IMG/VR virus record: IMGVR_UViG_3300027730_000145
Location: 1 to 24,067 of that record
Direction: 5' to 3' (one strand)
From: a virus
Length of the DNA: 24,067 nucleotides
A program made the translations under genes and the position numbers. Below are positions 1,831-11,080 of the stretch, piece by piece; within the stretch, counting starts at the first letter, position 1, and each line of letters begins with the position of its first letter. Under the pieces are notes generated by a model. The model was not told the origin of the DNA. It saw only the letters and a program-made list of their open reading frames with translations, and ran no database searches.

Positions 1831-2229
1831 TTATTCTAATTTCTTTTGCGACAATATTATTTTTATTGTGTTCCAATCTTTAGCGAGTGCACGTTTTTCA
1901 AATTCTTCTTTAGATATTCCTATTGCTAAATCGTTTCCATCACTACTATTAAATAAATAAACTTCTCTATCCTTTTTAACTAAAATAAAAACTTTACCAC
2001 CATAAATACTATAAGCTCTATGCCAAGCTAATTGTTCTACACTTATTTTTAATTTAATTTTAGTGTTATCTCGTTTAGGTGTTTTAAGATACTTACCCTC
2101 AATCCAACCTGATACACCATTAACACAATAATGAACGTCAGGGATTCCACGTTCTATTTGTGTTTCAATACGTTGAATAAAAAAATTATTTAATTTATTT
2201 CTTATTTGTTTCCAAAGTAGTTTTTCCAT
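1831..2229 (-). CDS. Putative PD-(D/E)XK / VRR-NUC-like nuclease
   Basis: The 132-residue protein (start MEKLLWKQ) has IERGIPDVHY at residues 25-34 and GWIEGKYLK at 41-49. This is an acidic residue after GxP followed by E-x-K on a beta strand (D31, E44, K46), the arrangement of small phage PD-(D/E)XK nucleases such as VRR-NUC proteins, which cut branched or flapped DNA. Length fits a single-domain member. The frame also opens at an ATG four codons earlier (2241). I chose the ATG at 2229 because related small phage nucleases usually begin with ME(K/R)xLW, but no strong ribosome site separates the two. Its start overlaps the methyltransferase gene. The nuclease assignment is by motif. The role in recombination or DNA processing is inferred. 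Confidence 0.55.
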   Translation of the reverse strand: MEKLLWKQIRNKLNNFFIQRIETQIERGIPDVHYCVNGVSGWIEGKYLKTPKRDNTKIKLKISVEQLAWHRAYSIYGGKVFILVKKDREVYLFNSSDGNDLAIGISKEEFEKRALAKDWNTIKIILSQKKLE

Positions 2230-2935
2230 TAATATCAACACATAAATGAGACATATTTCTAAATTTTTTAATTCCTAAAGTTTCAAAATAGTTATATAGT
2301 TCATCATCAATTTTTCTACAATGTACTTCACCATCTGCGGAAATAGGATGATATGTTAACCAATTTGTAATTATAAAATAACCTTTAAAATTTTTTATCA
2401 TATTATCTAAAAATGGTTTAAAATCTTCTTCTAATATATGTTCTATTGATTCAACCATAATAATAGTATCATAATTATTTAAATTTAAATTTACATCTGT
2501 TATTGATTTGTTAATTAAATTAATTTTAGTTTGATCAAACTTGTTATTAAAATATTTATTAGCTGTTTCTTTATAAAATTCATGAGCAAAATCAGATACT
2601 TCTATACTTGTTATATTTGTATTCATATAAGCTAAAGCACAAGATAATTCTCCTCTTCCTCCTCCAATTTCTAAAACATTTTTAGGAATTCTTTTTTTAT
2701 TTTTTTCTAAAAAATTAATTTGATCGTATACGGTATATGATCCACTATAATTTCTTCCGATGATTTCTTTTATATCTGGAAAATAATTTAATATTTCTTT
2801 TGAATAATCTATATCATGAGCATAACAAAGTGCGGCAAAAGCATCTCCAAACTTTAATATATTATTTTTCCACTCATGTATTCCGTCAGACCTATAAAAA
2901 AAATCTTTATTATATAATTTTTTATAATTAATCAT
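2195..2935 (-). CDS. Class I SAM-dependent methyltransferase
   Basis: The 246-residue protein has the SAM-binding motif I NVLEIGGGRGELSCAL at about 86-101, then an acidic strand end (SIEVSD) as motif II, and TIIMVESIEHI as the post-motif segment. This is a Rossmann-fold methyltransferase of the Methyltransf_11/23 type. There is no DPPY or PPC motif, so it does not look like a DNA base methyltransferase. Small molecules, sugars or sugar nucleotides are more likely substrates. It follows NAD synthetase and a UDP-sugar dehydrogenase-like gene with 8-13 bp overlaps, which suggests the three work on a common product such as a modified sugar. The fold is secure; the substrate is unknown. Confidence 0.8.
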   Translation of the reverse strand: MINYKKLYNKDFFYRSDGIHEWKNNILKFGDAFAALCYAHDIDYSKEILNYFPDIKEIIGRNYSGSYTVYDQINFLEKNKKRIPKNVLEIGGGRGELSCALAYMNTNITSIEVSDFAHEFYKETANKYFNNKFDQTKINLINKSITDVNLNLNNYDTIIMVESIEHILEEDFKPFLDNMIKNFKGYFIITNWLTYHPISADGEVHCRKIDDELYNYFETLGIKKFRNMSHLCVDINGKTTLETNKK

Positions 2936-3671
2936 TAAATTTACACACAGGGATTGACTTCATCTTATGTAAATTCTTAATTCTAAGTTCTAAATATTTA
3001 GTGTAGTTTTTATCAGAAGGATCTTTCATTGCTATTTCTAATTCTTTATAGCTCATTCCTAATTGATCAACGTCAGTTCTACCATCTGACCATAAGCCAT
3101 CTGTTGGATCTGCCATAATAATATCTTCTAATATTTTTAATTCTTTACCCATTTTCCATACATCTGTTTTTAAACAATCACCAATTGGAGAAATATCAAC
3201 GCCTCCATCTCCATACTTAGTAAAGAATCCTACACCAAAATCTTCTATTTTATTTCCAGTACCTACTACTATTCCATTTGTAGATGCAGATATTTGATAA
3301 AGACACATCATTCTTAATCTAGCTCTTGAATTAGCAAATCCTAATTGAGATGTGAATTTTAAATCAGTTAAACTATTTTCAAAAGCATTAAAACTATAAG
3401 TTAAATCTACTTCTACATCATAAACATTTTTAAATTTATTAATAAGCCAATTTTTATGTGCTATAGATAAATCATGTTGTTCTGGTCTTTGATGTATTGG
3501 CATACAAACAACTAAAGTTTTTAGTCCAGTCATTGCTGATATTGTACTTACAACAGAAGAATCAATACCACCTGAAATACCTACAACTAAACAATTAGCT
3601 GGATTAGGCATTTCAACTACATAATTAAAAATCCAATTCTTAATGTATTCTATTCTATCTATTGGTTGCAT
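2928..3671 (-). CDS. nadE: Ammonia-dependent NAD+ synthetase
   Basis: The 247-residue protein has the ATP pyrophosphatase P-loop GISGGIDSS at residues 31-39 and the NadE signatures GTGNKIEDFGVGFFTKYGDG and DISPIGDCLKTDVW, followed by PTDGLWSDGRTD and DQLGMSY. It would amidate nicotinic acid adenine dinucleotide to NAD+ with ATP and ammonia. No glutaminase (nitrilase) domain is present, and the length is typical of the bacterial ammonia-dependent form. The gene overlaps the dehydrogenase-like gene by 13 bp and the methyltransferase by 8 bp. In a phage it may refill NAD+ pools used by the adjacent NAD-linked dehydrogenase or emptied by host NAD-depleting defences. The enzyme family is clear; the benefit to the phage is inferred. 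Confidence 0.9.
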   Translation of the reverse strand: MQPIDRIEYIKNWIFNYVVEMPNPANCLVVGISGGIDSSVVSTISAMTGLKTLVVCMPIHQRPEQHDLSIAHKNWLINKFKNVYDVEVDLTYSFNAFENSLTDLKFTSQLGFANSRARLRMMCLYQISASTNGIVVGTGNKIEDFGVGFFTKYGDGGVDISPIGDCLKTDVWKMGKELKILEDIIMADPTDGLWSDGRTDVDQLGMSYKELEIAMKDPSDKNYTKYLELRIKNLHKMKSIPVCKFND

Positions 3672-4921
3672 ATTCCTATAGGTATATATTTAACATCGTC
3701 TTTAAGTTTTAAATACCTAAATGGATCAATGATTACTGAATCTTTATAAAAATAAAAATGATGAAATGCTTCATGTTTAGTTCCTATAAAAAATAGTTGT
3801 GCTCTATCATTCCATCCATATTCTTTTGCATTTGCTTCTACATTACCATCAATGTATGGATCCCATATTTTAGCTGTAATATTTTTTTCTTCTAAAATAT
3901 TTTTAAGTAATAATGATGGACTTCCTAAAGTTAAATTTGTTTCAGGTTTAAAAGATTTACCTAAAATATTTATTTCTAAGTTATTTTGATTTTCTAAAAT
4001 TAATTTAACAAGCCATTCTGTTTGATGCTCTCGTTGTTTCATAATCATATCATACCAATTAAAAGATAAATTTAATTTATTTGCAAGATATGATAGAGCT
4101 ATATTATCTCTAGGATGACAACCACCGCCATCTCCCATTCCTCCTTGTAGATATCTATTACTTACAATTCTTTTTGTGCAAAGAGATAGAGCTTTAGACA
4201 CTTCGTCTATGTTAGTATTAGGAAGATAATGACATGTCTCCATAACTGTATTAATCATAGAAATTTTAGTTGAGATAAACGTATTATAAACTACTTTAAT
4301 TAACTCAGCATTTTCCAAAGTAGTTTTAAAGAAAGGACTATTATTTATAGTCTTATAAAATTCTTCAGCTTTCTTTGCTGCTTCTTCGTCTTCAACACCA
4401 AATAATATAATTTCACTATTTAAAAAATCTTCAATAGTAGTTCCCATTGCTATAAAAAATGGATTATAACAAAGTTTAACATAATTATTTAATACTGGTA
4501 TTATTTCTCTACGAATAGTTCCCGGTAGAACAGTTGAAATTATAATAACTACAATTTCTTTTCTATGAACCATAGCTTCTATTGCTAAATCTCTTAATCC
4601 ATTTCTTAAATGTTCGTAATTAAAATCAGCTCTTTCTTGAGGTATTCTTGTAATACCTTCGTACTTTTCTTCGTGAGGCGTTTGAATTGGAACAAAGATT
4701 ATATCACAATCTTTAACTATATTGCTTATATTTTTTATTTGAATATTAGATTTATTAAGTAGTTCTTGTGCTCCTTCTTCTCTATAATTGAGGGTTTTTG
4801 TTCTTATTCCTTTTAATGTAATTGGACTAATATCAGTACCACAAACGTTATGTCCTTTTTCTTCTATCGCAAGAGCTACTGGAAGCCCTAACTTTCCTAA
4901 TCCTAAAAATCCTATATTCAT
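3659..4921 (-). CDS. UDP-glucose/GDP-mannose dehydrogenase family protein
   Basis: The 420-residue protein has an N-terminal NAD-binding Rossmann motif (GFLGLGKLG, residues 4-12), a middle domain with AELIKVVYNT (K209, N213), the catalytic cysteine motif GDGGGCHPRD (C268, D272) and a C-terminal UDPG_MGDP_dh_C domain (ILGKSFKPET). Family members oxidise a nucleotide sugar such as UDP-glucose to its uronic acid with two NAD+. The usual NPEFL glutamate is absent: residues 153-157 read NPFFI, followed by AMGTTIEDF. It is therefore a divergent subfamily, and its substrate cannot be fixed. It lies between DNA polymerase (TAATG overlap) and NAD synthetase. It could make a sugar donor for the glycosyltransferase-like gene of the same operon, or alter a surface sugar. 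Confidence 0.82.
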   Translation of the reverse strand: MNIGFLGLGKLGLPVALAIEEKGHNVCGTDISPITLKGIRTKTLNYREEGAQELLNKSNIQIKNISNIVKDCDIIFVPIQTPHEEKYEGITRIPQERADFNYEHLRNGLRDLAIEAMVHRKEIVVIIISTVLPGTIRREIIPVLNNYVKLCYNPFFIAMGTTIEDFLNSEIILFGVEDEEAAKKAEEFYKTINNSPFFKTTLENAELIKVVYNTFISTKISMINTVMETCHYLPNTNIDEVSKALSLCTKRIVSNRYLQGGMGDGGGCHPRDNIALSYLANKLNLSFNWYDMIMKQREHQTEWLVKLILENQNNLEINILGKSFKPETNLTLGSPSLLLKNILEEKNITAKIWDPYIDGNVEANAKEYGWNDRAQLFFIGTKHEAFHHFYFYKDSVIIDPFRYLKLKDDVKYIPIGICNQ

Positions 4922-6762
4922 TATTTAGCAGTGCCCCAACTATCTCCTTTCTCAATATCTATTTTAAGAGGCACTTTAATATCTACACAGTTTTTCATTA
5001 TTTGTATAGCTTCTTCAAAACATTTTTGTTTAGACTTATCAACAGAAAAATCAAGTTCATCGTGTATAGTTAATTTTAAATCTATTTCATTTAAAAGACC
5101 TGATTCATATATTTTAAGCATTGCTGCTTTAGTAATATCTGCAGATGAACCTTGTATTAATGCATTTAATGCAGTATGAGTATAAGCTCTTTTAAGTTCA
5201 GTATCTGGATATCTTTCCATTGCTTCTATTTTAGAATAAGCTAAACTTTGAAAACTATCTTTAGGTTCCCATTTATCAAATCTTCTTTTACGTCCTAATA
5301 AAGTTTTAATATATCCTCTTGTACTTGCAACATGTGCTACTTGTTTAGATAATTCTTTAACAAAAGGTACTCTACTGTGATATTTATTAAATAATTCATA
5401 AGCTGAATCATCATCTAGTCCTAATTCTCTTGCTAATTTTTTATTACCCATTCCATAAAATAAACCTAAATTAATAGTCTTAGCTTGTTTTCTTTCTATA
5501 CTAGCCATTTTAGCAACCATATCATGAAAGTCAGTATCATTATTATTTACAAATTCTTCTTGTACTTTTATTGCTGAATCCATATTTTTAATTACAGCAT
5601 AATGAACTAACACTCTAGGTTCTTGTTGAGAATAATCAGCACAACACCAATCTTGATTTTCTTCTGGAATAAATAAACTTCTGATCAACGGTCCAAGCTC
5701 AGGGTCTCTTGCCGGCACTTGTTGTAGATTAGGATTACTAGAGCTAAATCTACCTGTAACTGTACCCATAGAATTAAATTGACAATGAATACGACCACCA
5801 ATTGCTTTTTCTAGTATCATATTCTTTATAAATGTATTTCTAATTTTATCCAACTTTCTAATATCTAAAATTGTTTTAGATATTTTATCACGCTGTTGCT
5901 CAAGCCAATCTTGAGTAAAAGACGCAGTTCCTTTTTCTGTAAAATTATATTTAATTTGATTTTTATCATATGCTTCTTTTAATGACGCATTTGCCCAAAC
6001 ATTTACGTTATGTCCTCCTGCTTTATTTAGCTGATCTTGAAGCACGAATTGTTTTTTTTCTAATTCATTATAGAGTTGTTCAGCTTTTTTAAGATCAATT
6101 CTTACTCCACGTTTTCTTATTTCAAATAAACATGGTATTAATCTCATTTCAATATTAACTATATTTTCTATATCTTCAGTTTTTATTTTAGGTAATTGCT
6201 TTTGAAATATTTGAAGTGTTAACAAAGCATCTTCTTTAGCATATTCTCTTACACTATTTGCGTGTAACTTCCATAAATTATCTTTTACTTTTGCTTTTTT
6301 ACCAAAGTTAAATTGTATAGCTTGTTGTAATTCAGCTTCATATTTAGACTTTTTTAAATAATATTGACTTAATGATTCAAGTGAGTATTTTAGCTTGTTT
6401 TCATCTAATAAATGCTCTATAACCATTATATCGTATATAGAATGGTACTTAGTAAAGGCCAGTCTTGAATCGTGTGAATTTAGCCATTCCATGTCATATA
6501 AAGCATTGGCAAATACGAGCTTTTTATTTAATTTAAGCAATTTATCAATAAAATCAATAACTTGATCATTATTAAGATTTCCACCGCCTTCGTGTCCTAT
6601 TGGAAAATATTCATTATAACCACTATCTGTAGCTATAGATATACCTACTAATTTACCGTCTTTTCTAAAACCGCCTGGTCCTAAAGATTTAAGATTAGGA
6701 TCATAGGTCTCAGTATCAATTGCTATAATATTTGATTTTTCTAATTCAGAGAACTTGAACAT
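4921..6762 (-). CDS. polA: Family A DNA polymerase with 3'-5' exonuclease domain
   Basis: The 613-residue protein is the replicative polymerase of the phage. The proofreading domain shows IAIDTET (D16, E18), FANALYDMEWL (N86, D90) and REYAKEDAL (Y174, D178). The polymerase domain has TGRFSSSNPNLQQVP, motif A ADYSQQEPRVL (D376), motif B RKQAKTINLGLFYG (K428, Y436) and motif C TIHDELDF (H567, D568, E569). The residue matching E. coli Phe762 is Leu432, the Leu762 type common in marine viral PolA. The 5'-nuclease domain of bacterial Pol I is absent, as usual for phage enzymes, and no DnaJ-like insertion is seen. It starts inside the end of the dCMP deaminase gene (22-bp overlap) after an AGGA. 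Confidence 0.95.
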   Translation of the reverse strand: MFKFSELEKSNIIAIDTETYDPNLKSLGPGGFRKDGKLVGISIATDSGYNEYFPIGHEGGGNLNNDQVIDFIDKLLKLNKKLVFANALYDMEWLNSHDSRLAFTKYHSIYDIMVIEHLLDENKLKYSLESLSQYYLKKSKYEAELQQAIQFNFGKKAKVKDNLWKLHANSVREYAKEDALLTLQIFQKQLPKIKTEDIENIVNIEMRLIPCLFEIRKRGVRIDLKKAEQLYNELEKKQFVLQDQLNKAGGHNVNVWANASLKEAYDKNQIKYNFTEKGTASFTQDWLEQQRDKISKTILDIRKLDKIRNTFIKNMILEKAIGGRIHCQFNSMGTVTGRFSSSNPNLQQVPARDPELGPLIRSLFIPEENQDWCCADYSQQEPRVLVHYAVIKNMDSAIKVQEEFVNNNDTDFHDMVAKMASIERKQAKTINLGLFYGMGNKKLARELGLDDDSAYELFNKYHSRVPFVKELSKQVAHVASTRGYIKTLLGRKRRFDKWEPKDSFQSLAYSKIEAMERYPDTELKRAYTHTALNALIQGSSADITKAAMLKIYESGLLNEIDLKLTIHDELDFSVDKSKQKCFEEAIQIMKNCVDIKVPLKIDIEKGDSWGTAK

Positions 6763-7223
6763 TTTCCTAATATAATTTCTTTATTAATATAAGTCCAAGA
6801 TTTACCGCCGTTATCCATCCAAAAGTTTCCAACTGTTTCGAAGTCAACATATTTTTCAAAAGTTATAATTCCTTCTGCTGAAGTGTTTAATAAAAGTTTT
6901 ACACAATGAATACAAGGACTAACGGTTGTATAAACAAATTTTATTTCATGTACATTTCTACACTGAAGTAATGCGTTTTGCTCAGCATGAATAGCTTTAC
7001 AAATATCTAAACCTTCACCTGATTTTAAATGAGCACCAGGACATGGCTTATCTATACAATGTTCAGTGTGAGCAGGTCCTCCATTATAACCTGTCGCTAG
7101 AACATGTCCTCTTTCATTTATTAAAATACAACCTACTTTTCTTCTCGCACACGTTCCTCTTTCAGAAACAAGATTAGCCATTTTTAAAAAATACCAATCT
7201 TTTGGAATTCTATAATTATCCAT
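6741..7223 (-). CDS. Deoxycytidylate (dCMP) deaminase
   Basis: The 160-residue zinc enzyme converts dCMP to dUMP. The catalytic core is HAEQNAL (H79, E81) with SPCIHC (C104, C107). The C56/C61 pair in HCIDKPCPG with C25 resembles the extra zinc-binding region of T4-type dCMP deaminases, and ATGYNGGP at 43-50 is the conserved substrate loop. It overlaps the thymidylate-synthase-like gene by 8 bp and the polymerase gene by 22 bp. In a phage with ordinary DNA it would feed dTTP synthesis. If the neighbouring enzyme makes hydroxymethyl-dCMP, the deaminase would balance dUMP against modified dCMP as T4 Cd does. Confidence 0.93.
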   Translation of the reverse strand: MDNYRIPKDWYFLKMANLVSERGTCARRKVGCILINERGHVLATGYNGGPAHTEHCIDKPCPGAHLKSGEGLDICKAIHAEQNALLQCRNVHEIKFVYTTVSPCIHCVKLLLNTSAEGIITFEKYVDFETVGNFWMDNGGKSWTYINKEIILGKCSSSLN

Positions 7224-8049
7224 TTTTAATTATTTGTAACTTATCAGAAAGTGTAAGTCCATCTTCTTTTCCTATTTTTATATCAGCAGCTTGATATAAA
7301 GTTTCTACTATTCTCATAGGATTTAATTTATATTTTTCTATAAGATCATTAAAAGAAAAATCACATTCGTAGTTTTGAATTCCTGCTCTTACAATATCAG
7401 CGTCTTTTGAATTTGTATCGTATAGATGACGACTTCCAGCATTAATATGTAATTTTCCTAATTTACATATTATACCTAAATTATTTAAATAACAAGCAAT
7501 TACGAAACTAATTGCACTAAAATTAAAACTATCATAGGGAAGACCTAACCATACATCGTTACTTCTCATTGTAGTAATACAATGTAAATATAAATTATTT
7601 TCTCTAGGTCTTAAAAAAAATTGCATAGCTACAGTACATGGAATATCTTTACTTGATCTAGGATTCTCTCTCCATATAGTAAGTACCGCTTGTCTTGAAT
7701 CTTTATCTTTTTTAAGTGTATCTACAATATAACTTATTTGAGTTATAATTTTAGGACCATATGCTCCAAAGAATGTTACACCATCATCACTAAATCTTTT
7801 AATATTTTTCATGTACTTAGAAATAGTTAAAAGATCATTTCTACCATCTAGTATCCATGCTGCTTCACCAAACATAAAACTATAATTTAAATTTCTTTCT
7901 CGAATACTTATGATAGGTAAATTCATATCTACTTGAAAAGTATGATTTAATTTTTCGTAAATTTTTAATTGACGAGGCGCACATTCATAGTCAAATTCTC
8001 TTATTAATTCAACTATAAAATTTTTATAATCTTGATCTATTTGATTCAT
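7216..8049 (-). CDS. Thymidylate synthase-fold enzyme, probable dCMP hydroxymethylase
   Basis: The 277-residue protein has the thymidylate synthase / dCMP hydroxymethylase fold. Visible residues are E62 (FGEAAWIL), the phosphate-binding R119 (DSRQAVLTIW), catalytic C138 (KDIPCTVAMQFFLR), MRSNDVWLGLPYD at 161-173 and NAGSRHLYD at 203-211. The base-recognition position, Asn177 in E. coli ThyA (GLPFN), is Asp173 here (GLPYD). T4 gp42 dCMP hydroxymethylase also has Asp at this position, and known Asn-to-Asp variants of ThyA prefer dCMP. The GSxHxY order also resembles gp42. I infer a dCMP hydroxymethylase or dCMP methylase using methylene-tetrahydrofolate. An ordinary thymidylate synthase is the alternative. 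It sits between a nucleotide kinase and dCMP deaminase, overlapping both by a few bases. Confidence 0.8.
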   Translation of the reverse strand: MNQIDQDYKNFIVELIREFDYECAPRQLKIYEKLNHTFQVDMNLPIISIRERNLNYSFMFGEAAWILDGRNDLLTISKYMKNIKRFSDDGVTFFGAYGPKIITQISYIVDTLKKDKDSRQAVLTIWRENPRSSKDIPCTVAMQFFLRPRENNLYLHCITTMRSNDVWLGLPYDSFNFSAISFVIACYLNNLGIICKLGKLHINAGSRHLYDTNSKDADIVRAGIQNYECDFSFNDLIEKYKLNPMRIVETLYQAADIKIGKEDGLTLSDKLQIIKNG

Positions 8050-8621
8050 ATACTATTTACAAAAGCTGTTTCTTCTATTTTTTGTACTACTCTTTCTAAA
8101 TCATGGCCTTCTTTAAACATATCATAACGAACAAAATCTTTACGATTTTTTAAAGGACATAATAAAGATAAAAAACTATTTTCATGTGGATGTTTATCTT
8201 CCCAACAATTTAAATATATTTCTATTACTTTATCAATATCATTATATTCTTCGTGTCTAATTTTTTTATTATTATTATGATTTTCTTTTACTTTTTTAAT
8301 ATCATCAGGTATACACCAAACGTATATTGCACCTTCTCGACTTAAATATTTCCAAAGATTATAAGCATCGTAAGAAGGTTCACCTCTATAAATATAAGAA
8401 TAACATTGTTCAGATGGCCAATGTCTATCTATAATTACTAATTTACCTTTTTCTTTCATTTTAACAGCAAGTCTTGCAGCTGCTGTATGCCATAACTCCA
8501 TATTCTTATGTACTCTTAAATGAATATAATAAGATTCGGAATATAATTCTTTAAACTTTTTAGCAAGAGTAGTTTTACCAACTCCATCTGGTCCTTCTAA
8601 TATTATTATTCTAGCAAGCAT
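8046..8621 (-). CDS. Deoxynucleoside monophosphate kinase, thymidylate kinase-like
   Basis: The 191-residue P-loop kinase has IIILEGPDGVGKTTLAKKF with the Walker A at 10-18 and the DRH motif in LVIIDRHWPSEQ (D65, R66). This matches thymidylate kinase-like phage enzymes that lift a dNMP to a dNDP. A lid region is less clear and asparagine-rich (ENHNNNKKIR). It overlaps the thymidylate-synthase-like gene by 4 bp and the glycosyltransferase-like gene by 16 bp. By position it may phosphorylate the unusual nucleotide made by that enzyme, as T4 gp1 does for hydroxymethyl-dCMP. Its base preference cannot be read from sequence, and plain dTMP kinase is the alternative. Confidence 0.8.
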   Translation of the reverse strand: MLARIIILEGPDGVGKTTLAKKFKELYSESYYIHLRVHKNMELWHTAAARLAVKMKEKGKLVIIDRHWPSEQCYSYIYRGEPSYDAYNLWKYLSREGAIYVWCIPDDIKKVKENHNNNKKIRHEEYNDIDKVIEIYLNCWEDKHPHENSFLSLLCPLKNRKDFVRYDMFKEGHDLERVVQKIEETAFVNSI

Positions 8622-9631
8622 TTAAAAAATTCTTTAGTCCTTTCTTTCGTCCAAAACTTTTTCTTTAATATATAAGCTTGACTACTTATTAATTCTTTCA
8701 ATTCGTCATTACTACCGTTTTCTATAATTTTTAAATCAATATTTAATCCTAAAATTTTAGCTTCTTCCGGATGTGCATATATAATATTACCAGCATCGTT
8801 TGCTATTTTATATCTAACTCTCCACCAACCACTTCCTTTCATAGTATGATAATGTGGAGGACTAATCATTCCCCATACTTTTTTATATTCTTCAAATAAT
8901 TCATGTTCTTTTAAACGCACTTGTTTTTCTTTTACATTTCCAAATCGTTTAACATTCCAATTAAATACTTGTTTAGTAAACCAACTATTTTTACTTACTA
9001 AACTTGCAAGTATCCATGCTCTTTCTTTTTCATTATTTTCTTTTAAAAATAAATTATTATTATCAGTATGATTTAAATATGTATCAGTATAAGGTGTAGG
9101 ATCCCAATTAATAATTTTATTTGCTTTCATTCCTAATTCGTCATAATTACCGCCATCATAAGCTGGTACTAATAAAGTATGTGGCCATTTATCAAATGCA
9201 AATGTATCAACTAAATCTTCAATTTCTTTTTTAAAAGGTTGTGCTTCGTCCCAATAAACTTTACCAACAGGGTTTCCAGCTTGACTTACTTTTTTCCATA
9301 TTCTCCAATGGCCTCTACTAAACGTTCCAAATCCTTGAACTGAATCTTTAGTTTGCCAATCATCTATTGAAATAATAGCATCAGGTCTTTTAATTATAGT
9401 ATATGCTGCTCCATACCAATATCTTGCTGATAAACTGTTAGGACCAAATACGAATACAAATACTTTATCATACATTGAAACATCTTCTCCCGGGATGATC
9501 GCTTTATGAGTTACATCGTGTCCTAATTCTTTTAGAACAGTAGGAAGTATTCTTGCAGAAGTCGCTATATTTAATGGACTACGTGCAGTACCAATTGATA
9601 ACGCATTAAATCCTGTTACTAAAATTTTCAT
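8606..9631 (-). CDS. GT-B-like glycosyltransferase, candidate DNA glucosyltransferase
   Basis: This 341-residue protein looks like a GT-B glycosyltransferase. It opens with MKILVTGF, a Rossmann strand and loop, then a helix ending VLKELGHDVTHKAI, and has YDKVFVFVFG and AIISIDDWQTKDS in the N-terminal half. The C-terminal half has WWRVRYKIANDAGNIIYAHP at 269-288 followed by a helical end (DELKELISSQAYILKKKFW). This order resembles the donor-binding region and tail of T4 beta-glucosyltransferase, which has a similar R-x2-N-D-A segment and closing helices. Overall similarity is weak and judged by eye. Its place between a dNMP kinase and a MazG-like gene, next to a hydroxymethylase-like gene, favours DNA base glycosylation. 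A sugar transferase for another acceptor cannot be excluded. Confidence 0.5.
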   Translation of the reverse strand: MKILVTGFNALSIGTARSPLNIATSARILPTVLKELGHDVTHKAIIPGEDVSMYDKVFVFVFGPNSLSARYWYGAAYTIIKRPDAIISIDDWQTKDSVQGFGTFSRGHWRIWKKVSQAGNPVGKVYWDEAQPFKKEIEDLVDTFAFDKWPHTLLVPAYDGGNYDELGMKANKIINWDPTPYTDTYLNHTDNNNLFLKENNEKERAWILASLVSKNSWFTKQVFNWNVKRFGNVKEKQVRLKEHELFEEYKKVWGMISPPHYHTMKGSGWWRVRYKIANDAGNIIYAHPEEAKILGLNIDLKIIENGSNDELKELISSQAYILKKKFWTKERTKEFFKCLLE

Positions 9632-10025
9632 TTATTTCTCTTTCTTCTTCTATAATTTTTTCTATATTAGGTGCTTTCCAATCTTTAGGTTTTACAACGT
9701 CAAATTTAGTTCCACGTTTTCCTGTTTTATCTTTAGCTCTAATCTTACTCATATTAGCTTTTTGTACTTCGTTCCAAGCTTTTTCAAATGGTAAATTAAA
9801 TAACCAAGCTGTTCCTAAAGCTATATAAACTATGTCGACTAAAGCATCTAAAGCTCCAGCTGCATCTTTTTTAGTTATAGCATTAGTATATTCAGCTAAT
9901 TCTTCCATTAAAAAAGCAGTTCTAAAATTAATAAGTTCATTATTATCAGGTATATCAACTTTTTCATTTTTTTCAAAGCCATATTTTTTATGGAAGTTGT
10001 CTATATCTTTTAATATATCTGTCAT
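9606..10025 (-). CDS. MazG-like all-alpha nucleotide pyrophosphatase
   Basis: The 139-residue protein has the metal-binding signature of the all-alpha NTP pyrophosphatase group: MEELAEY (E41, E42, E45) and, one helix later, DALVDIVYIALGTA (D60, D64). Members hydrolyse (d)NTPs to monophosphates and include MazG, dUTPases of this fold and the T4-type dCTPase. A C-terminal basic part (KIRAKDKTGKRGTKFDV) follows. It overlaps the methyltransferase by 4 bp and the glycosyltransferase-like gene by 26 bp. It may remove an unwanted nucleotide such as dCTP, or lower ppGpp as suggested for cyanophage MazG. The substrate is not known. Confidence 0.8.
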   Translation of the reverse strand: MTDILKDIDNFHKKYGFEKNEKVDIPDNNELINFRTAFLMEELAEYTNAITKKDAAGALDALVDIVYIALGTAWLFNLPFEKAWNEVQKANMSKIRAKDKTGKRGTKFDVVKPKDWKAPNIEKIIEEEREINENFSNRI

Positions 10026-11080
10026 AATAATCTTTCTTGTTCAGGTGGTTTTCTAAAATCAACCACTTGATGTAATTCTTTATTTTCTTTTTTATTTTCT
10101 ATACTACTTTTAATTATCCTTGCTACATATTCAGCTACAGGTGGCATAACACTTCTCGCAATTTGTGAACCTATTGTAGAAGCTGGTCCTTCCCATATAT
10201 AATCATGAGGATAACCTGCCATATAAGCTAGTTCTTTATGTCCAAATAATCTATCTTCTGTAGGATGTATATAAAAACCTCCAGCTATAACTGGTATGTG
10301 TTCATCACTTTTTAATCTCCATTTCATAAATTGAGGTCTACCTTTTACTCCGCCTCTCATTCCACCACGTTTCCAAGTTTCTGGTGGATTAAATCTTTCC
10401 CATGTTACTCTTAAACTTTCTCCTTGTTTACAATGTTTTAAATAAGGAATTTCGTTTTTTCCTAACTTCATTAAATGTCCAATATCTTTTTTATGTTCTA
10501 ATTTAAAATTTTTAAGAACTTCACCAGCTGTTGGTAATGGAGAAAAGTTTAATGGTTTAACACTTAAATGATATTTAGTTGCTATAAAGAAAAATCTTTT
10601 ACGACTATGATTTAATCCAGTATAACCACCATCAATTAATAAATGAGTGGTGTAATAACCTAATTCATTAGCTTCTTTAGTTAATTGTTGAATCATTTCA
10701 TATCCACCATTCTTACTATAAACTCTAGGAACTGATTCAAGTACGATAGCTTTAGGTTTTAAATCTTTTAATAAACTAAAAGCATTTCTCCAACACGCTA
10801 TTCTAGGGTCGTCTTTCCAAGCCATCGCACCTTTTTGAGTTGATCCTAAATTAGACCAAGGAGCACATGGAGGATTACAATAAATAAAATCTACTTTATT
10901 TTTAAACTTATCTTTAGGCCAATTTTCTTCTCCTTCGTAATATTCTATATTTGGAAAATTAGCTTGAAAAGTTTTTTTATAAACTCCAGGTTTCATTTCA
11001 AAATGTGCTAAGATATCAAAATGTTTTTTAACGCCTAAAGCAAATCCACCTGCGAATATGTATGCTCCTAATGCTTTCAT
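10022..11080 (-). CDS. DNA (cytosine-5)-methyltransferase family protein
   Basis: The 352-residue protein follows the C5-cytosine methyltransferase order: motif I IFAGGFALGVKKHF (8-21, shorter than usual), motif IV CNPPCAPWS with catalytic C72, motif VI VLESVP (E115; Ser where ENV is usual), motif VIII NHSRKRFFFIA (R160, R162), motif IX-like FGHKELAYMAGYPHDY and motif X IGSQIARSVMPPVAEY. Between VIII and IX lies a Trp- and Gly-rich target-recognition region. It would methylate C5 of cytosine in DNA, perhaps against host restriction. No partner nuclease is next to it, so it is an orphan enzyme. It is joined to the UvrD-like helicase gene by a 1-bp overlap. The family is clear; the target site is unknown. 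Confidence 0.85.
   Translation of the reverse strand: MKALGAYIFAGGFALGVKKHFDILAHFEMKPGVYKKTFQANFPNIEYYEGEENWPKDKFKNKVDFIYCNPPCAPWSNLGSTQKGAMAWKDDPRIACWRNAFSLLKDLKPKAIVLESVPRVYSKNGGYEMIQQLTKEANELGYYTTHLLIDGGYTGLNHSRKRFFFIATKYHLSVKPLNFSPLPTAGEVLKNFKLEHKKDIGHLMKLGKNEIPYLKHCKQGESLRVTWERFNPPETWKRGGMRGGVKGRPQFMKWRLKSDEHIPVIAGGFYIHPTEDRLFGHKELAYMAGYPHDYIWEGPASTIGSQIARSVMPPVAEYVARIIKSSIENKKENKELHQVVDFRKPPEQERLL

Follow-up and report, generated by a model that had tools for sequence, protein, structure and literature searches.

Phage T4 makes glucosyl-5-hydroxymethylcytosine through gp56, gp42, gp1, cd and the alpha- and beta-glucosyltransferases. The 5-arabinosyl-dC pathway of RB69 and NP relies on phage sugar-nucleotide genes that feed a cytosine glycosyltransferase, and the thymidylate synthase (TS)-type enzyme of these mosigviruses is reported to produce 5-hydroxy-dCMP (PMC13390438). 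Here we analyze a DNA fragment of 24,067 bases from a marine-type phage, IMG/VR record IMGVR_UViG_3300027730_000145 (hereafter the window), which encodes an overlapping operon sharing the functional steps of the T4 pathway. We propose, with a probability of roughly 0.7, that this is a cytosine-hypermodification operon in which 5-hydroxymethylcytosine (5hmC) replaces cytosine, a glycosyltransferase (GT) with the fold of T4 beta-glucosyltransferase (BGT) adds a sugar, and the donor is probably UDP-glucuronate or a derivative. The TS homologue bears the gp42 signature and the GT model resembles BGT. The operon departs from T4 in its compact layout, in its inclusion of PolA and a phage sugar dehydrogenase, and in a sugar that is probably not glucose; it departs from RB69 and NP in lacking the residues of a 5-hydroxy-dCMP synthase and in carrying a UDP-glucose dehydrogenase (UGDH) in place of arabinose genes. 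An earlier, sequence-only reading of this DNA had matched five adjacent genes by family to the T4 set. That likeness stands for the TS homologue and the GT fold, whereas the kinase is thymidylate kinase (TMPK)-like, the counterpart of the T4 dCTPase is a pyrophosphatase of MazG/PRA-PH type, and the GT belongs to a different family, unrecognizable by sequence.

Partial parallels exist in other phages. The TS of Stenotrophomonas phage AXL3 is 46% identical to that of the window over the matched 71%, shares its key residues, and has the same neighbors (kinase, MazG, and deaminase); unlike the window, the 18.6-kb AXL3 region searched contains neither a GT of the window's PHROGs family, phrog_14998, nor a UGDH. 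Of 37 restriction enzymes, 35 failed to cut AXL3 DNA and the 2 that did recognize A/T-only sites; the AXL3 authors assigned the cluster to dTMP synthesis (PMC7504290). The residues of the AXL3 TS argue for dCMP hydroxymethylation. In Bacillus phage SP-15, whose modified uracil carries both glucuronolactone and glucose, a UDP-glucose dehydrogenase was proposed as the source of glucuronate for DNA (PMC5977210). Although its base is derived from uracil and its glucuronolactone is phosphodiester-linked, SP-15 is, by analogy, an earlier case of a phage UDP-glucose dehydrogenase for which a part in DNA modification has been proposed.

The TS homologue has as its best PDB match the CMP 5-hydroxymethylase MilA (72 bits, versus 37 for ThyA). 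We aligned it with Escherichia coli ThyA (EcThyA), T4 gp42, and RB69 ORF048, and give positions in EcThyA numbering. Its catalytic Cys aligns with C146/C148, and the ThyA residues Asn177, His147, and Leu143 are absent, replaced by Asp, Thr, and Asp, respectively. Position 177 governs dCMP specificity, and MetaGPA associates both this position and 147 with modified contigs (PMC8670742). A further expectation of the sequence-only reading, a TS-fold enzyme with the dCMP-type Asp, is therefore borne out at position 177 and strengthened by an Asp three residues ahead of the catalytic Cys (KDIPC). This residue corresponds to T4 Asp145, which activates water and has been named a hydroxymethylase signature (PMC6400193). 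The full set, D143 C146 T147 D169 G173 D177 Y209, is that of gp42; the RB69-type residues Glu143, Asn169, Val173, and Phe209, seen in RB69 and Morganella phage Rgz1, are absent, with Asp, Asp, Gly, and Tyr in their places. The Tyr of the T4 Ser94-x-Tyr96 motif is kept, and Ser94 itself is Gly in the window, AXL3, and HTVC200P, which therefore places the homologue in a clade separate from gp42. Going by these residues, we class it as a protein that functions in the manner of dCMP hydroxymethylases but lies outside the gp42 clade.

The GT has no Pfam match, and phrog_14998 is annotated as of unknown function. An AlphaFold2 model built from a 50-sequence alignment reached a pLDDT of 88.4 and a pTM of 0.87. 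The top three Foldseek matches in the PDB are all T4 BGT (E 7.5e-6 to 7.7e-5), and VIA-align superposes the model on 1NZD with a Z of 17.9 over 284 residues (root-mean-square deviation 3.8), in keeping with the GT-B-like enzyme anticipated earlier. T4 alpha-glucosyltransferase scores about 15 by the same measure and unrelated GT-B enzymes score 13–16; therefore the modeled GT-B fold is firm and the particular likeness to BGT moderate. Invariant R273 is placed on BGT R269 by MAFFT. Invariant D91 lies at the strand end where BGT carries its catalytic Asp100, and in our reading it would be the equivalent of that residue, although MAFFT leaves the two unaligned.

All five genes assigned earlier to 6741-10025 are found at exactly those coordinates, overlapping and on the minus strand, and their enzyme families hold. 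The limits of the cassette were drawn too narrowly on both sides, as overlapping genes continue upstream (a C5-methyltransferase-fold gene) and downstream (PolA, the dehydrogenase, NadE, and an S-adenosylmethionine (SAM) methyltransferase). About 35 relatives were found when IMG/VR was scanned for the GT, the TS homologue, and the dehydrogenase. The order Dcm-MazG-GT-TMPK-TS-dCMP deaminase-PolA is retained in about 30 other IMG/VR contigs at GT identities down to about 50%, and the arrangement is therefore not a product of chance; extended to the dehydrogenase, the same order is unchanged down to 67% GT identity. This co-occurrence supports the joint pathway beyond the gene order of the window from which it was originally deduced.

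A GT profile scan of IMG/VR matched 459 relatives, and 80 of these loci were read. Among 54 new GT loci, interrelated and so to be counted descriptively rather than as independent trials, a TS homologue lies within about 10 kb in 44 and a TET/JBP dioxygenase in 5; their sugar genes are UDP-galactopyranose mutase (24 loci), UDP-glucuronate decarboxylase (UXS; 8), and UGDH (6), none of which occurs in 17 TS loci without the GT. The gp42 signature DCTDGDY is present in 43/43 GT-linked TS proteins complete over these sites. In phage C48C1, a GT homologue of 28% identity lies between a UDP-galactopyranose mutase and a TET/JBP dioxygenase, a member of an enzyme family making 5-hydroxymethylpyrimidines, which suggests an independent route to such a base. 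C48C1 differs from the window in this TET route, which acts on polymerized DNA, and in its furanose-type sugar enzyme. Mutase-GT pairs also occur in Erwinia FBB1 and Aeromonas phiAS4, and DSL-LC01 combines the TS set with a GT-mutase pair. In Morganella phage Rgz1 (L008), the GT homologue is flanked by genes for an arabinose-5-phosphate isomerase and a nucleotidyltransferase, and the TS residues are RB69-type; to judge from this locus, the GT family may serve 5-hydroxycytosine too. Two of these arrangements were considered for the window's own lineage and rejected: UDP-galactopyranose mutase was found in 0/18 close relatives, and Tet_JBP in 0/18 relatives' records (fragments), with no TET/JBP Pfam match among the 20 window open reading frames (ORFs) scanned.

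Sequence or structural modeling supports the enzyme families, active-site residues, fold, and conserved linkage, and a pathway of 5hmC synthesis and glycosyl transfer is, on these predictions, well supported. From them we infer the order of reactions, DNA as the acceptor, full replacement of cytosine, and the identity of the sugar. The MazG-like enzyme, whose EELxE...LDALxD motif is retained in 26 sequences, is proposed to hydrolyze dCTP (and dUTP), yielding dCMP, which the TS homologue would convert to 5-hydroxymethyl-dCMP (hm-dCMP). The deaminase, with HAE and PCxxC zinc motifs retained in relatives, would divert surplus dCMP to dUMP and dTMP. Phosphorylation of hm-dCMP would fall to the TMPK-like kinase, a relative of the HTVC200P and AXL3 kinases that adjoin their TS genes. 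PolA, whose gene directly follows that of the deaminase in nearly every relative with a long enough contig, would insert the hydroxymethylated nucleotide so that genomic cytosine becomes 5hmC. The BGT-fold transferase would then glycosylate the hydroxymethyl group in the DNA, drawing on UDP-glucuronate or a derivative supplied through the phage's own operon-encoded nucleotide-sugar dehydrogenase.

Several observations weigh against this proposal. Ser94 of gp42, replaced by Gly in the TS homologue (GAYG), is part of the proposed hydroxymethylase signature. Comparison of the GT profile with that of T4 BGT is not significant by sequence (hhalign probability 6%), and the interrelatedness of the GT loci limits what their counts can carry. 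A C5-methyltransferase in the operon is hard to square with complete cytosine replacement, and is puzzling because C5 is blocked once cytosine is hydroxymethylated; it may act on residual cytosine, or replacement may be partial. The hexose substrate of the dehydrogenase cannot be fixed from its sequence, and relatives of this enzyme are also found in apparent phage glycan clusters.

The sugar is where we part from the sequence-only reading, which assumed glucose. The dehydrogenase exceeds the general nucleotide-sugar dehydrogenase cut-off of TIGR03026, reaches no substrate-specific (equivalog) cut-off, and carries the active-site motif with the catalytic Cys (GDGGGCHPRD). Its operon position is fixed in the window's lineage, and it is present wherever a relative's contig reaches it. 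A sister lineage, with a GT about 50% identical, has no dehydrogenase on contigs up to 64 kb and encodes in the same operon a UXS that scores 299 bits to human UXS1. At two more distant loci (L121 and L129), UGDH and UXS are adjacent, alongside GT, TS, deaminase, and MazG, a gene set that would provide a complete route from UDP-glucose to UDP-xylose in a DNA-modification context. UDP-glucuronate is the element shared by UGDH here, UXS in the sister lineage, and both at L121 and L129; the donor is therefore probably this sugar nucleotide or a derivative.

We rank a uronic acid first among the possible sugars, a pentose made with host help second, and glucose third because no decarboxylase was found in the window's lineage (no UXS on contigs up to 56 kb) and because a short GalE-like short-chain dehydrogenase/reductase (SDR), encoded further down in three relatives and weighed as a candidate UXS, has neither of the UXS motifs TSTSEVYG and CYDEGKR. 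Our tentative first choice is that virion DNA bears glucuronosyl- or galacturonosyl-5hmC, made by the phage UDP-sugar dehydrogenase and the BGT-fold transferase, with GT residue 27 binding the carboxylate. Position 27 is Arg or Lys in 11/11 aligned GTs of the UGDH lineage, Asn in all 4 of the UXS lineage, and another non-basic residue in nearly all other sequences of the alignment, a pattern that may reflect descent alone. A pentose donor, for which a host enzyme would convert phage UDP-glucuronate to UDP-xylose and leave xylosyl- or arabinosyl-5hmC in the DNA, is possible but doubtful: pentoses on DNA are known from RB69/NP and Thanatos and UXS is found in the sister lineage and at L121 and L129, whereas the window's own lineage offers only the GalE-like SDR. 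That the pathway is as proposed but the sugar is glucose from host UDP-glucose, as in T4, with the dehydrogenase serving, for example, a surface glycan, is unlikely. The best GT fold match is a glucosyltransferase, and the glycan clusters noted above fit such a role; against it, a UGDH would deplete UDP-glucose, the operon retains this gene, other GT lineages have UXS either in its place or together with it, and no other glycan gene was recognized among the window ORFs scanned.

The acceptor is very unlikely to be 5-hydroxycytosine made by an RB69-type 5-hydroxy-dCMP synthase. Arabinose in RB69/NP is attached through 5-hydroxy-dC (PMC13390438) and the GT homologue of Rgz1 accompanies an RB69-like set, yet the E143/N169/V173/F209 of RB69 and Rgz1 contrast with D/D/G/Y in the window and in all the complete GT-linked TS proteins. 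Plain dTTP biosynthesis by deaminase, ThyA, TMPK, and MazG with unmodified DNA, as these families are widely annotated and as the AXL3 authors read their own set, is scarcely credible in view of the N177D, L143D, and H147T replacements, the linkage to a BGT-fold protein, and the refractoriness of AXL3 DNA to restriction enzymes.

Table 1. Predicted operon genes in the window, with the evidence for each assignment
Feature	Coordinates	Strand	Evidence
Divergent protein with a C5-cytosine methyltransferase fold, conserved at the head of the cassette	10022..11080	-	PF00145 2.4e-31
NTP pyrophosphatase, MazG/PRA-PH all-alpha family	9606..10025	-	PF01503 4.3e-12; phrog_671 1.1e-28
GT-B glycosyltransferase, 341 aa, proposed 5hmC-DNA glycosyltransferase	8606..9631	-	phrog_14998 1.6e-24; AlphaFold2 model; BGT fold match
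Thymidylate-kinase-like P-loop kinase, proposed hm-dCMP kinase	8046..8621	-	PF02223 4.7e-07, above cut-off
Thymidylate-synthase-superfamily dCMP 5-hydroxymethylase	7216..8049	-	PF00303 2.6e-17, 63 bits; signature residues
dCMP deaminase	6741..7223	-	PF00383 1.1e-18; zinc motifs
PolA-type DNA polymerase, proposed hm-dCTP incorporation	4921..6762	-	phrog_17 1.2e-129
Nucleotide-sugar 6-dehydrogenase (UDP-glucose dehydrogenase type), proposed donor-sugar enzyme	3659..4921	-	TIGR03026 197 bits; PF03721/PF00984
NadE-type NH3-dependent NAD synthase, accessory	2928..3671	-	TIGR00552 162 bits
Class I SAM methyltransferase	2195..2935	-	PF13489 5.1e-09

The remaining operon genes are more variable in their conservation or less easily placed. 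The C5-methyltransferase is only 24% identical to the nearest phage protein, and its PPCAPWS, ESVPR, and HxRKR motifs are conserved in 26 sequences; in G014 an in-frame stop divides the gene into two parts (L093:9129-9743 and 9745-10182). NadE and the SAM methyltransferase vary in presence among relatives, the former being absent from L050, L053, L065, and L118 and the latter detected in the window and L052 only. In all 15 named phage records that carry a NadE of the window type, a UGDH homologue is found no more than 1 kb away. We considered a role as uronamide synthetase and rejected it: more distant IMG/VR NadE loci have a UGDH within 2.5 kb in only 15/62 cases, bacterial UGDH loci contain NadE in 0/80, and some relatives of the window do without it. 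Elsewhere NadE resembles a stand-alone metabolic gene, and by default it may supply NAD. A Nol-like carbamoyltransferase is encoded in G001 (L096:15627-17066) on the opposite strand amid structural genes, and in HTVC008M a carbamoyltransferase stands beside a NadE-UGDH pair. Carbamoylation was set aside, as the carbamoyltransferase occurs in only 1/25 relatives.

The virus had been described as having a small genome. The window is indeed 24 kb, but it is a fragment without end repeats, and contigs of relatives reach 56 and 64 kb. The 56-kb contig G001 encodes a major head protein, a portal, and part of a large terminase; these genes and its length therefore indicate that the virus is a tailed phage whose genome measures about 56 kb or more. 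Against named phages, the window gave no Megablast match. Its GC content is 28%, and the closest bacterial dehydrogenases in GTDB, at 61%, are from Pelagibacteraceae, a weak pointer to the host with which the GC content agrees. An ORF of 1152 aa at 20245-23703 matches nothing in Pfam and nothing convincingly in PHROGs.

Collectively, the operon is very probably T4-type cytosine hypermodification in a new form, through which phrog_14998 gains a likely function. Its 459 IMG/VR relatives acquire a testable role as DNA-5hmC glycosyltransferases. The loci suggest a modular design: the acceptor part, a dCMP hydroxymethylase or TET enzyme, stays constant, and the donor part varies among galactopyranose mutase, UGDH, UXS, and arabinose genes. 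By analogy with AXL3, virion DNA may be protected from restriction and CRISPR, as the sequence-only reading had supposed. A uronic acid would add extra negative charge to every modified base pair. Should the donor prove to be a uronic acid or a pentose, the DNA would carry a new decorated base, potentially able to escape restriction, CRISPR, and glucosyl-specific type IV enzymes, and the transferase would offer a new enzymatic means of tagging DNA at 5hmC.

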